Assembly: GCF_028285745.1 (NCBI RefSeq)
Contig: NZ_JANQOP010000089.1
Location: 1-40,064 of the forward strand
DNA: 40,064 nucleotides
Origin: Acaryochloris sp. IP29b_bin.137
Lineage (GTDB): Bacteria; Cyanobacteriota; Cyanobacteriia; Thermosynechococcales; Thermosynechococcaceae
Direction: 5' to 3'
Shown here: one piece after another, positions 6,892-14,995 of the stretch
Numbering within the stretch: the stretch's first letter is position 1
Layout of the letters: the number at the start of each line of letters is the position of its first letter
Position numbers and translations under genes: made by a program
Notes under the pieces: model-generated
The model's input: the letters and a program-made list of their open reading frames with translations, nothing else
Database searches by the model: none
What the model was told of the DNA's origin: nothing

Positions 6892-7132
6892 TGATGTGGG
6901 ACTCCTTTACCTCTCTATCTTGACAAAAATCTTGTGACCGATCTGGTATGGATTTGCGTTAATTGAACGTTTCACCGTCAAATAGGGCTAATCTGGAGAA
7001 CTATCCAAATTTTACTGATGCTTATTTATCGATTAATAGCAAAAGCCCACAATTGATTAACATCTAGATTTATTCCAAAAATGAATAAGACGTTCTATAC
7101 CTTATACTTCAGGATGAGATAGAAACGGACAT

Positions 7133-10380: not shown

Positions 10381-12099
10381 CTATGTTTCTGCACCTTCGA
10401 GATGCCTATTTTCTGGACGCATTGTTAATCTGGCCGCAATCGGCATGCGCCAGCCTGAGCCAAAAGCGCGATCGGTAATTTTGAGCCCTGGCGGTGCCTG
10501 GCGACGTTTGAACTCTGCCTGTTTGACCATCTGAATAATTCGGTCCACAATCGCGGCAGGATGCCCTGCCGCGATGATTTGTTGGCTGGACTGATGATTA
10601 TCGACATAGCGATAGAGAATATCATCCAAAACCTCATAAGGTGGCAAGGAGTCCTGATCCACCTGTCCCGGTTTGAGTTCAGCACTGGGGGGCTTAGTGA
10701 GGACGGATGCGGGGATAATGATTTTCTGCGCTCCCAGCTCTGGCGGTGTGTGAGTATTGAGCCATTGGCATAGTTCATACACCCGGGTTTTAGGGACATC
10801 GGCAATGGCCGCTAAGCCCCCGTTCATATCGCCATAGAGGGTGCAGTAGCCGACCGCCATTTCCGATTTGTTGCCTGTAGATATCAGCAAACGGCCAAAC
10901 TTATTGGCAATAGCCATCAGTAAATTGCCCCGGATGCGGGCTTGAATATTCTCTTCTGCTACACCAGGTTCTGTGCCTGCAAAAACGGGGCCTAAAATTT
11001 GGTCGTAGGTCTGCATCGCTGTTGCGATCGCGAGCTGAGTCGTCGGCATTCCCAGGTTATCAGCCAAATTCTCAGCATCTTGAATCGAATGGTCAGAACT
11101 ATAGGGCGATGGCATCAAGACGCCCAACACATTGTCGGGGCCGAGGGCAGCGGCAGCAATGGCGGCTACTAGCGATGAATCAATCCCGCCACTGAGTCCC
11201 AGAACCGCTTGGCTAAACCCACATTTTTGAGCATAATCCCGAATGCCCAAGACTAAGGCTGACCAAATTTCAGCATTGCTATCGGATAGAGCAGGCTCTA
11301 TTCGACTGGGCAGTAAATCATGGGCGTTATAGGTGAGGAACAATAAATCTGGGGCGAAGCCATGTGCCCGACCGACCACCTCTCCCTGGCGATTAACGGC
11401 CAGACTACGGCCATCAAAAATCAGGTCATCATTGCCCCCCACCTGGTTCCCATAAATCAGGGGACAGTGATACTGCTGAGCATGATGTCGCAACATCGCT
11501 TCTCGCAATTCTTGTTTACCGACGCAGAATGGGGAGGCCGATAGGTTGATGATCAGATCCACGTTGTAGCTCATGAGCTCAGCAACCGGATCAACCGCAT
11601 AGGCTCGTTCCCCCCAAAAATCTGAGTTGTTCCATAGATCCTCACAAATGGTGACCCCAATTTTCCCTTCTTTCAGGTCCAGCACATTGGGTTGATGGCC
11701 CGGTTCAAAATAGCGATCTTCATCGAAGACATCGTAGGTGGGCAGCAAATGCTTGTGAAAACACTGCTGAATCTTGCCATTATGCAAGTGGACGATACTG
11801 TTGAACAAGGGCTTACCCCCCTGAGCCCTGTTCCCCTGATTGTGTTGTGTCGTTCCTACCAGTACGTGGAGTTTGACGGGTAGGCGAGTGGCAAGTTGTT
11901 CTAATACTGTTTGGGCCGCATCCACAAAGCTCGGGTCTAGCAACAAATCTCTGGGGGGATAGCCGCAAAGGGAGAGCTCTGGAGTCAAAAGTAGGGTTGC
12001 CTCCTGTTGATCGGCTTCGGTTGCAGCCGCTTCAATCGCTGCAGCATTCCCCACCAAATCGCCAATGATCGGATTCAATTGTGCGATCGCAATTTTCAT
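10381..12099 (-). CDS. nadE: Glutamine-dependent NAD+ synthetase
   Basis: The last step of NAD synthesis: amidation of nicotinate adenine dinucleotide using ammonia released from glutamine. The 572-residue protein has an N-terminal nitrilase-type glutaminase domain with the triad Glu41 (TPELSLCGYP), Lys116 (KHLLPTYDVFDEDRYF) and Cys152 (TICEDLW). A C-terminal synthetase domain follows, with the ATP-binding loop SGGIDSS (303-309) and the conserved STGNKSE and GDMNGGLA segments. Both halves are intact, so it should use glutamine directly. It is the last gene of the pncB-nadD-nrtR-nadE operon, starting 9 nt after the nrtR stop. Confidence 0.95.
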   Translation of the reverse strand: MKIAIAQLNPIIGDLVGNAAAIEAAATEADQQEATLLLTPELSLCGYPPRDLLLDPSFVDAAQTVLEQLATRLPVKLHVLVGTTQHNQGNRAQGGKPLFNSIVHLHNGKIQQCFHKHLLPTYDVFDEDRYFEPGHQPNVLDLKEGKIGVTICEDLWNNSDFWGERAYAVDPVAELMSYNVDLIINLSASPFCVGKQELREAMLRHHAQQYHCPLIYGNQVGGNDDLIFDGRSLAVNRQGEVVGRAHGFAPDLLFLTYNAHDLLPSRIEPALSDSNAEIWSALVLGIRDYAQKCGFSQAVLGLSGGIDSSLVAAIAAAALGPDNVLGVLMPSPYSSDHSIQDAENLADNLGMPTTQLAIATAMQTYDQILGPVFAGTEPGVAEENIQARIRGNLLMAIANKFGRLLISTGNKSEMAVGYCTLYGDMNGGLAAIADVPKTRVYELCQWLNTHTPPELGAQKIIIPASVLTKPPSAELKPGQVDQDSLPPYEVLDDILYRYVDNHQSSQQIIAAGHPAAIVDRIIQMVKQAEFKRRQAPPGLKITDRAFGSGWRMPIAARLTMRPENRHLEGAET

Positions 12100-12108
12100 A
12101 TCTCATAC

Positions 12109-12873
12109 CTACACAAACACTAGGGGTTTATCTCGAAAAGGGGCAAACGCTTCCACATCAAAACGGTACAAACTCGCAGGCCGTCCCGCACCCCGACAGA
12201 CTTTCTCTCCCGTATCGGCCAAAAAACCTAATTTCAACAGTCGCGATCGGAAATTTGAGTAATCCGTAAAGTGCTCTCCCAAAACAGTGCTATAGAACTG
12301 ATAGAGATCGGCAAGGGTAAAACGGTCGGGTAAGACATCAAAAGCTACAGGACTATACTCGAGCTTGTTGCACAACCGCCGCTGACCATAGTTGAGAATA
12401 TCTCGGTGATCAAAGGCGAGATTGGGTAACATTTCTAGCGGATGCCAATCAATTTCACAGCCTTCATCCACAATCAACAAAGCATCCTCATACCGCACCA
12501 GCGCAAAATAGCTGACAGATAAGTAACGAACCCCAAAATGGTCAGGAGCCTCGCGGGGATCACGATGGGGCCCCCCAAAACTATAGAGCTGCTCCAAATA
12601 CAGGTTTTCAACCCGTAACTTTTCCGCCAAAACTCGATAGGCCGCGGCTTCCAAAGATTCCCCTTCCCGCACCAAGGTTCCTGGTAAGGCCCAATCTCCC
12701 GTATAGGGATCACTATGGCGTTTGACTAGAAGGGCGAGTAAGCGATTCTGCGCCGTATCAACAGAAAAAATGACATTGTCTACGCCTACTTTGAATTCTG
12801 CTAGAGCTGGGTTGGGGTGGTCAAAAGTAGAGGTGGTTGAGGCGCGTCGAGAGGAGGCTTGGGCTCGTTCCAT
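12109..12873 (-). CDS. nrtR: NrtR-type Nudix-related transcriptional regulator of NAD metabolism
   Basis: A 254-residue protein with an N-terminal Nudix-fold domain (about 26-165) and a C-terminal winged-helix region (about 170-254, ending AFAPFRDKPLVFV), the architecture of NrtR repressors. The Nudix box is degenerate: where catalytic enzymes have REUxEExG, this protein reads RVLAEKLR (80-87), losing two metal-binding glutamates. This fits a sensor of ADP-ribose or related NAD metabolites rather than a hydrolase. It sits inside the NAD operon, and a GT-N7-AC palindrome of NrtR type covers the operon promoter. The start overlaps the end of nadD by 73 nt; no other in-frame start exists before the domain. 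Confidence 0.85.
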   Translation of the reverse strand: MERAQASSRRASTTSTFDHPNPALAEFKVGVDNVIFSVDTAQNRLLALLVKRHSDPYTGDWALPGTLVREGESLEAAAYRVLAEKLRVENLYLEQLYSFGGPHRDPREAPDHFGVRYLSVSYFALVRYEDALLIVDEGCEIDWHPLEMLPNLAFDHRDILNYGQRRLCNKLEYSPVAFDVLPDRFTLADLYQFYSTVLGEHFTDYSNFRSRLLKLGFLADTGEKVCRGAGRPASLYRFDVEAFAPFRDKPLVFV

Positions 12874-13433
12874 GAGTACAGATGATGGTGTTGAATATAA
12901 GCGGCAATGGCAGGTGGGACATCATTGATATCCCCTGTATGTCGATAGTGGCTAGAGGAAACCGGAGGGCCCTGAAAACTGGCGATAGAAAACCTTGCCC
13001 CTAGCCGTTCTATCTCTTCTAGATCAGAGGGTTGAAGTTGAACATCAGGTCGTCCCAACAACAATAACTTCACCTGTTGAAATAGAGTTTCAACCCCATA
13101 CCAATGAGACAGTGTGGGCACCACATCTGAACCCACCACCAGGATGAACTCCGCTTGAGGCCAGATTTGCTGTGCATGCTGAACCGTCATCAGGGTCTTG
13201 GCGTAACTCAGCTCTGTATGCAGACCCACCTGCTTAAATCGTTGTTGCGAATCTTGCACCAAGAGGGCCAACATCTGTTGGCGTTCGGCCAAGGCGGACT
13301 GGTGGTGTTTAAAGGGATTATCGGATGTCCAAACGGCAACATAGTCGTACAGCCCTGCGAGCCATTCAATGATGGATTGATGCCCCACCGTCGGTGGATC
13401 AGCACTGGTTCCAAAAAGGGCAATATGTTTCAT
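12801..13433 (-). CDS. nadD: Nicotinate-nucleotide adenylyltransferase
   Basis: Joins NaMN and ATP to give NaAD, the middle step between PncB and NadE. The 210-residue nucleotidyltransferase has the N-terminal ATP-binding signature GTSADPPTVGH (8-18), the central VVGSDVVPTLSHWYG, and the C-terminal SSSHYR version of the ISSTxxR motif followed by the VPPAIAAYIQHHHLY end typical of NadD. About 22 proline-rich residues extend beyond this core and overlap the nrtR start by 73 nt. It starts 55 nt after the pncB stop. Family assignment is firm; preference for NaMN over NMN is assumed from the family. Confidence 0.92.
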   Translation of the reverse strand: MKHIALFGTSADPPTVGHQSIIEWLAGLYDYVAVWTSDNPFKHHQSALAERQQMLALLVQDSQQRFKQVGLHTELSYAKTLMTVQHAQQIWPQAEFILVVGSDVVPTLSHWYGVETLFQQVKLLLLGRPDVQLQPSDLEEIERLGARFSIASFQGPPVSSSHYRHTGDINDVPPAIAAYIQHHHLYSWNEPKPPLDAPQPPLLLTTPTQL

Positions 13434-13488: not shown

Positions 13489-14871
13489 TCAGCGCTTCTG
13501 AGCGGTTCGACGCGTTGCTGACGTCAAAGCCTCTAATTCAGTCGATAACTGCACGGTCATGGGTGAAGGATCATCCACTTGACGAACGGTCGTCGGTAAA
13601 CTGTGTACGGCGGCCAGTGTTCGTTGAGCAATGTCCGCCAAGGACTCTGGTACCACTAATCTTTGTCCTGCCTTCATGACCGGTTGGAGCAGCGGCTGCC
13701 CCATCGCAGATGCATCATCCATGAGTCCAAGACAATCTTTTACCACCTGTCCTTGCTTTGATTGGCGAAAAATTTGCTTGCGTCCTGGATAAGTTAACTT
13801 ACCGTTGGCTTCCTTCATCACGGGGTTGCCATCAATTTCCACCAGCTTATAAACACCGTTGACTGGGGTACCGGTGACCAGTTTGGTCCCAACACCATAT
13901 CCATGGATGAGAGCACTAGCTTGTCGGAGTCGCTGAATCTCAAGTTCATCCAAATCTCCACTCACCAGTATTTGGGTGTCTGGCAGCAGTTGGTGAATTT
14001 CCTGCGATAACTCCACCAAATCACCGGAATCTAGTCGGACAGCAGGGACTTCCAGCTCACCAGCCTTAACCTGATGGGCTAAGGTTTGAGCCGCTGCGAT
14101 CGTGTCATAGGTATCAATCAATAGAGCCGCCTTCGGAAACATTCGGTGAAAAGCAGTAAAGGCTTGTAACTCTGTTCCCTGAGTGGCCGTCATGGCCATT
14201 ACCAAGGCATGGGCCATTGTGCCACTGGGTTGTCTGCCCAGCTTTTGGGCGGCCAACACATTTGAAGTGGCATCTAACCCTGCCGCCAACGCCGCGCGAG
14301 CCGCCCAAACTGAAGCTTGAGGGCCAAAAGCACGCCGGGTCCCAAACTCTAGCACCGTCGCATCTGGTCCGGCCATATCCCTTAAGCGGGCAGCCCGGGT
14401 TGCGATCAAAGTTTGGTAGTTAATTGCGTTTAAGAGAAAGGTTTCTATCCACTGGGCTTGCCAGAAAGGAGCTTCAATTCTCAAGAAAGGCTCATTCGCA
14501 AAAACCGCTGTTCCTTCAGGGACTGCCCATACATCTCCTGTGAAACGACCTTGAGCTAACATCTCCCAAAAATGGGCAGGAGCCGCGGTCAATAAGTCAG
14601 TTTGCTTGAGGTATTCAATTTGTTCCCCAGAGAATCGTAAGTTTTGCAAGTAATCCAAAACCTGAGCTAAACCCATTGCGATTAAATAGCCATAGCCTGA
14701 GGGCATTCGTCGCACTGTTAATTCAAAACTGGCGGGTCTCTCCGCAAGTTTCTCATTGACATAGCAAGCAGACATAGTCACTTGATATAGATCCGTGAGC
14801 AAACTATAGTCTGAGGCAGAGAAACTGAGACTTAAATCGCTCTTCTCAGCAGGCGGAACCAGTCCGAGCAT
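13489..14871 (-). CDS. pncB: Nicotinate phosphoribosyltransferase
   Basis: Converts nicotinate and PRPP to NaMN, the salvage entry point of the Preiss-Handler route. The 460-residue protein shows the family's N-terminal SLLTDLYQVTMSACY, the FELTVRRMPSGYGYL strand, EFGTRRAFGPQASVWAA, the active-site segment GTMAHALVMA containing the histidine expected to be phosphorylated, DTYDT and the phosphoribose-binding VRLDSGDL. The ATG at 14871 has GGAGT about 6 nt upstream. It is the first gene of the operon with nadD, nrtR and nadE, so the upstream operator should control all four. Confidence 0.94.
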   Translation of the reverse strand: MLGLVPPAEKSDLSLSFSASDYSLLTDLYQVTMSACYVNEKLAERPASFELTVRRMPSGYGYLIAMGLAQVLDYLQNLRFSGEQIEYLKQTDLLTAAPAHFWEMLAQGRFTGDVWAVPEGTAVFANEPFLRIEAPFWQAQWIETFLLNAINYQTLIATRAARLRDMAGPDATVLEFGTRRAFGPQASVWAARAALAAGLDATSNVLAAQKLGRQPSGTMAHALVMAMTATQGTELQAFTAFHRMFPKAALLIDTYDTIAAAQTLAHQVKAGELEVPAVRLDSGDLVELSQEIHQLLPDTQILVSGDLDELEIQRLRQASALIHGYGVGTKLVTGTPVNGVYKLVEIDGNPVMKEANGKLTYPGRKQIFRQSKQGQVVKDCLGLMDDASAMGQPLLQPVMKAGQRLVVPESLADIAQRTLAAVHSLPTTVRQVDDPSPMTVQLSTELEALTSATRRTAQKR

Positions 14872-14967: not shown

Positions 14968-14995
14968 ATTATAGTAATTTTTACCATAACTGCAA
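14968..14995 (-). promoter_or_regulatory. Sigma70-type promoter of the NAD operon
   Basis: On the minus strand TTGCAG (14995-14990), a 16-bp spacer and TATAAT (14973-14968) form a good housekeeping promoter, leaving a leader of about 90 nt before pncB. The spacer and -10 box coincide with the putative NrtR operator. Confidence 0.6.
14969..14989. promoter_or_regulatory. Candidate NrtR operator
   Basis: A 21-bp imperfect palindrome, TTATAGTAA-N3-TTACCATAA, with one mismatched position. It contains the GT-N7-AC core that I recall as common to NrtR sites (GT at 14974-14975, AC at 14983-14984). It covers the spacer and most of the -10 box of the pncB promoter, so bound repressor would block RNA polymerase. 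Confidence 0.55.

Follow-up and report, generated by a model that had tools for sequence, protein, structure and literature searches.

Upstream of a group of NAD synthesis genes in Acaryochloris sp. IP29b_bin.137 lies a palindrome that overlaps a predicted promoter, which raises the question of what reads it and which genes it controls. We analysed a window of 40,064 nucleotides, contig 30 of a 5.5-Mb assembly, and compared it with the rest of that genome and with related genomes; positions without a contig label refer to the window. We consider it highly likely that the palindrome serves as operator for NrtR, the product of the third operon gene, which would repress pncB-nadD-nrtR-nadE and nadA and be released by ADP-ribose. 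The arrangement is widely conserved, and cyanobacteria very probably use it as a switch to lower the expression of their NAD synthesis genes. Control of such genes by NrtR is already published, and the present circuit belongs to that known regulator family; the NrtR proteins of Synechocystis and Shewanella oneidensis were reportedly described by Rodionov et al. in 2008.

The operon and its predicted Nudix-related repressor

The four genes lie on the minus strand and are, by their NCBIfam and Pfam profile matches, what the initial annotation had called them. They are pncB (13489–14871), encoding nicotinate phosphoribosyltransferase (NF006696, above cut-off); nadD (12801–13433), encoding nicotinate-nucleotide adenylyltransferase (NF000842, above cut-off); nrtR (12109–12873), encoding a Nudix-related repressor with a C-terminal winged helix, as judged from Pfam domain matches and an ortholog alignment; and nadE (10381–12099), encoding an NAD+ synthase with an N-terminal CN_hydrolase (glutamine-using) domain (NF010588, above cut-off). 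The same gene order on a single strand was present in 29 of the 48 stretches fetched from relatives, some of which are cut by contig ends. As listed, nrtR shares 73 bases with nadD (12801–12873); outside the genus, nrtR orthologs align mostly only from about residue 10–25, and the alignment leaves room for a real nrtR start that may be further downstream.

The window NrtR has the N-terminal Nudix domain and the C-terminal NrtR-type winged helix that mark the NrtR family, with all Pfam matches above cut-off (NUDIX, 3.5e-14; NrtR_WHD, 3e-20; AraR_C, 4.6e-47). Its Nudix box had been described as degenerate (RVLAEK), and the signature GX5EX7REUXEEXGU was indeed impaired in all 49 aligned orthologs. 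The first glutamate of REUXEE was absent from every one of them, being replaced by I, V, T or A, the last had become K in 47, R in 1 and T in 1, and T stood in place of G in 46. The operon NrtR does not carry the intact box of an active Nudix hydrolase (ADP-ribose pyrophosphatase), and on its sequence the degenerate box fits a sensor. The NrtR proteins of four named Acaryochloris assemblies are 78–90% identical to that of the window. Among solved structures, the sequence relatives of NrtR were 5bs6 (AraR) and 3gz5, deposited under the name 'MutT/nudix family protein', which we take to be the Shewanella NrtR.

The NrtR proteins of Synechocystis and Shewanella oneidensis likewise have a Nudix-like sensor, a C-terminal DNA-binding domain and NAD genes as targets, and we saw no essential difference between them and the window NrtR; one of the tested members comes from a cyanobacterium. 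NrtR proteins that regulate NAD metabolism share an impaired Nudix box (PMC4666351). ADP-ribose suppresses DNA binding by both proteins (PMC4666351), and by analogy with them ADP-ribose would be the ligand of the window NrtR. It seems rather unlikely that NrtR binds here with NAD+ as its effector, as does NdnR of Corynebacterium, or with another nucleotide in place of ADP-ribose. Effectors do vary within the NrtR family, with NAD for NdnR and arabinose for AraR (PMC4666351), AraR_C was the better-scoring C-terminal model, and NF050029, an equivalog model for ADPR-responsive repressors that is narrower than the family, matched at 121 bits (E 5.5e-35), below its 400-bit cut-off; against this, the tested cyanobacterial protein, that of Synechocystis, responded to ADP-ribose according to the work cited in PMC4666351. 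AraR of Bacteroides (PDB 5bs6) is the best solved sequence match and has the same two-domain layout, but it responds to arabinose and controls sugar genes (PMC4666351), whereas the window nrtR sits in an NAD operon.

A palindrome fused with the predicted −10 element

On the plus strand, positions 14968–14995 read ATTATAGTAATTTTTACCATAACTGCAA. In minus-strand order, TTGCAG (14995–14990) is followed by a spacer of 16 bases (14989–14974) and TATAAT (14973–14968), so that the promoter region on the pncB strand is TTGCAG-TTATGGTAAAAATTAC-TATAAT. The predicted NrtR operator (14969–14989, minus) reads TTATGGTAAAAATTACTATAA in the direction of pncB; it rests on motif scans and genome comparison and has the consensus TTWTGGT-N7-ACTATAA. 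It forms a 9-N3-9 palindrome whose arms pair at eight of nine positions, and it spans the entire spacer and five of the six bases of the −10, correct to the base as originally placed. The pncB-strand letters of 14989–14968 are TTATGGTAAAAATTACTATAAT, and 97 bases separate the operator from pncB.

The proposed TTGCAG-N16-TATAAT promoter stood up in part. Its layout is present, as is TATAAT, the predicted −10 element (14968–14973, minus), the first five bases of which are shared with the right operator half-site. The proposed −35, TTGCAG (14990–14995, minus), is weak, however: it is identical to TTGACA at three of six positions, it was absent from the output of a promoter scan of the window, and the −35 region carried little information in the profile, except for A at −2 and −1. 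In 9 of 38 operons, TTGACA itself preceded the site at 17-base spacing.

Palindromes of the 9-N3-9 type with at least eight of nine pairs occurred three times in the window versus 4.8 ± 2.2 expected from 30 first-order Markov sequences; symmetry alone therefore proves nothing, and we did not use it as support. No second place in the window came within three mismatches of the initially proposed pattern, for which shuffles averaged 0.05 matches.

The best pncB sites of the first scan ended in ACTATAA in 33 of 38 cases, although the query was the symmetric ACCATAA form. Later profiles comprised 33 of the 38 operon sites (five rows with low scores or short flanks were dropped) and 45 of the 56 nadA sites described below (the 11 site-less ones were dropped). 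These rows were picked by consensus, which makes the consensus letters constant partly by construction, but the next base lies outside the selection: it was T at all 45 nadA sites and at 21 of the 33 operon sites, which completes TATAAT. The left half-site is TTWTGGT, not the mirror TTATAGT, an asymmetry that would fit a right half constrained as a −10. Because the right half-site reads as the promoter TATAAT, bound NrtR should block RNA polymerase. The fusion of half-site and −10 is not absolute, since at two Dolichospermum loci the site preceding nadD is inverted.

Conservation, nadA and co-occurrence with nrtR

Conservation of the palindrome upstream of pncB in relatives had been put forward as a check on the initial reading. 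Our sample consisted of 48 neighbourhoods of nrtR orthologs from relatives and, with the window added, 38 of 49 contained pncB. The best pncB-upstream site matched at least 13 of the 14 consensus bases in 36 of these 38 operons; the other two were G038 (12) and G007 (10, counted as none). Across 58 genomes including our own, exact TTWTGGT-N7-ACTATAA occurred 88 times, versus 8 for the reversed pattern, and 82 of the 88 copies preceded pncB, nadD or nadA at a distance of at most 241 bp, measured on the same strand only and up to where the protein match starts. The 88 divide into 46 at nadA (two in G027), 28 at operon pncB, 4 at detached pncB, 4 at nadD and 6 elsewhere; such genome counts are inflated by relatedness, and per genus a match was present in 29 of 38. 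The comparison across genomes thus makes the palindrome significant, unlike the symmetry statistic of the window. A further check covered 16 loci, from which we set aside six that probably come from genomes already used and L231, which may correspond to the G005 locus. Among the remaining nine, L233, L240 and L241 carry the site (14, 13 and 14 of 14 bases), its orientation is reversed in L234 and L237, no good site was present in L235 and L236, and the sequences of L238 and L239 start only at nadD.

The initial annotation had called the NAD circuit self-contained, which was wrong because nadA bears the same operator: in the same genome, TTTTGGTAAATTCAACTATAA stands 48 bases before nadA on a different contig from the operon (C174), so that two transcription units of this genome have exact sites. 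An exact 14-of-14 site was present upstream of nadA in 45 of the 56 genomes having a nadA match, and the 11 without it were G031, G032 and G057, in which nrtR is present, together with eight genomes that have no nrtR ortholog. Scored with a matrix built from the pncB sites of other genera, the 45 nadA sites reached 24–35 bits, and the best of 1120 mononucleotide shuffles reached 10.8. Two genomes without nrtR, G017 and G042, retain site-like remnants before nadA (12 and 11 of 14 bases; 13.2 and 13.8 bits) that score above all shuffles. The part of the literature that was searched held no published cyanobacterial motif or nadA target, and we claim no priority.

These data bear on whether the conserved TATAAT block is merely a strong promoter with incidental palindromy. 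The convergence of the pncB sites on ACTATAA despite a symmetric query reads as a −10, and chance palindromes of like quality are common in the window, as such a promoter would allow. Yet both halves are exact in the 45 nadA upstream stretches, so that TTWTGGT, though not a −35, is conserved to the same degree as the −10 half; almost all exact sites stand at NAD transcription units; and in the eight nrtR-less genomes where nadA lacks an exact site the best match stays below 13 of 14 bases, the remnants in G017 and G042 included. We regard a promoter alone as very improbable.

Consistent with an NrtR operator, the exact site was present in 46 of 49 genomes with nrtR versus one of nine without, the ortholog cut-off (E 1.1e-58 or better, passed by 49 of 58 genomes) having been drawn after a gap in the list was seen. 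Together with the conservation, this co-occurrence supports the original proposal that the palindrome is the NrtR site of the NAD operon. The nrtR genomes missing an exact site are G014, G031 and G056. The lone nrtR-less genome with one, G037, is split into 720 contigs and has no nadD match, so its operon may sit in an assembly gap. No clear pncB was found in the nine nrtR-less genomes (G019 had a weak match at 2.2e-4), nor was one clearly found in seven genomes with nrtR (G006, G013, G014, G015, G016, G044 and G049); loss of pncB is thus not tied to loss of nrtR alone. In G032 and G057, pncB is detached from nrtR and preceded by two tandem sites. G007 has pncB-nadD-nrtR with no site before pncB, and G033 has none before its detached pncB, though its nadA has one. 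The fetched stretches around nrtR in G013, G014, G016, G032, G033, G049 and G057 held no good site, so autoregulation is not universal. An ORF divergent from the operon (15184, plus strand) was rejected as the real target: only 8 of the 48 other operon stretches contained a relative of it, and the site tracks pncB and nadA.

We infer binding, repression and a promoter start at this site. An NrtR dimer would grip the half-sites TTWTGGT and ACTATAA and, with the second half-site forming most of the −10, would keep RNA polymerase off the pncB-nadD-nrtR-nadE promoter; the second copy of the operator would shut the nadA promoter likewise. One repressor would then stand over nicotinate salvage (pncB), the last two common steps (nadD and nadE), de novo nadA and its own gene. 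NAD turnover would raise ADP-ribose, which would bind as a ligand in the degenerate Nudix domain, take NrtR off the DNA and let NAD synthesis rise. MsNrtR of Mycobacterium smegmatis is also a catalytically inactive autorepressor of NAD genes with a palindromic operator containing a 7-base gap (PMC6800001), but it differs in its operator (GTTTTCGA-N7-TCGAAAAC), its targets (nadA/B/C) and its reported acetylation. The consensus TTWTGGT-N7-ACTATAA, usually followed by T, would provide a precise cyanobacterial operator that could be used for predicting NAD regulation and tuning NAD supply in cyanobacteria, and it leaves the picture of the family unchanged.

A second NrtR-like protein and sites away from NAD genes

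The genome encodes a second NrtR-like protein, NrtR2 (G000:C75:6940–7632, L081; relatives L082–L092), which combines NrtR_WHD with an intact Nudix box. The box was intact in 12 of 12 aligned sequences, which comprised 11 of the 17 paralog matches and L091, a short plain Nudix protein. Upstream of NrtR2 are two TAGTGT-N7-ACACTA palindromes, one exact and one with one mismatch (G000:C75:6860–6878 and 6897–6915). The exact form occurred at 11 places in the 58 genomes, not above the 12 of the reversed control; seven of the 11 copies preceded an NrtR2 match by 17 to 222 bases. That another regulator such as NrtR2, not the operon NrtR, binds the NAD sites is scarcely credible: NrtR2 matches the same winged-helix family and both palindromes have a GT-N7-AC core, but the palindrome adjoining NrtR2 is a different one, and G011, G018 and G020–G028 have NAD sites with no NrtR2-class match (such matches have E near 1e-40).

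NrtR2 is divergent from a PP2C gene in its own genome and in G001; in G001 an ADP-ribosylglycohydrolase gene then follows, and the corresponding place in the own genome showed none. Isochorismatase-like and VWA-like ORFs, read from their translations and without a Pfam match, lie nearby. The locus resembles ADP-ribosylglycohydrolase systems with Nudix regulators (PMC9503650). One doubtful reading, which we judge improbable, is that Acaryochloris-type cyanobacteria have two NrtR circuits with one messenger: the dead-box NrtR would sense ADP-ribose and set NAD synthesis, both salvage and nadA, through the −10 half-site, and the live-box NrtR2, with its own operator TAGTGT-N7-ACACTA, would control the divergent PP2C cluster and hydrolyse the same messenger. 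If true, this would couple ADP-ribosylation stress to NAD resupply.

Allowing two mismatches, the pattern gave 36 and 42 matches in the own genome versus 79 and 80 for the control; we treated these as noise and interpreted only exact matches. Two further exact matches in this genome were not taken as targets, one inside an ORF (C37:20115) and one among clustered repeats within a DUF3854 ORF (C353:12818). The latter cluster (G000:C353:12662–12838, L110) contains about five NrtR-site-like GGT-N7-AC palindromes within 180 bases in the 5′ part of the ORF, which may be, we presume, a plasmid replication gene; a distant DNA search of a plasmid collection gave no match to it. A one-mismatch match (C100:8266), left out of the counts, directly precedes a peptidase-like ORF and has a serine-protease-like ORF next to it, both named from their translations. 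In relatives, the four exact matches away from NAD genes were in G016, G044, G045 and G049; the analysis covered the flanking sequence of all four and the ORFs at those of G016 and G045. At L182 (G045:C403:13866–13886), a TTATGGT-N7-ACTATAA site and a TAGTGT-N7-ACACTG palindrome lie side by side ahead of an isochorismatase-like ORF of 349 aa on the opposite strand, and this locus is a possible meeting point of both NrtR types.
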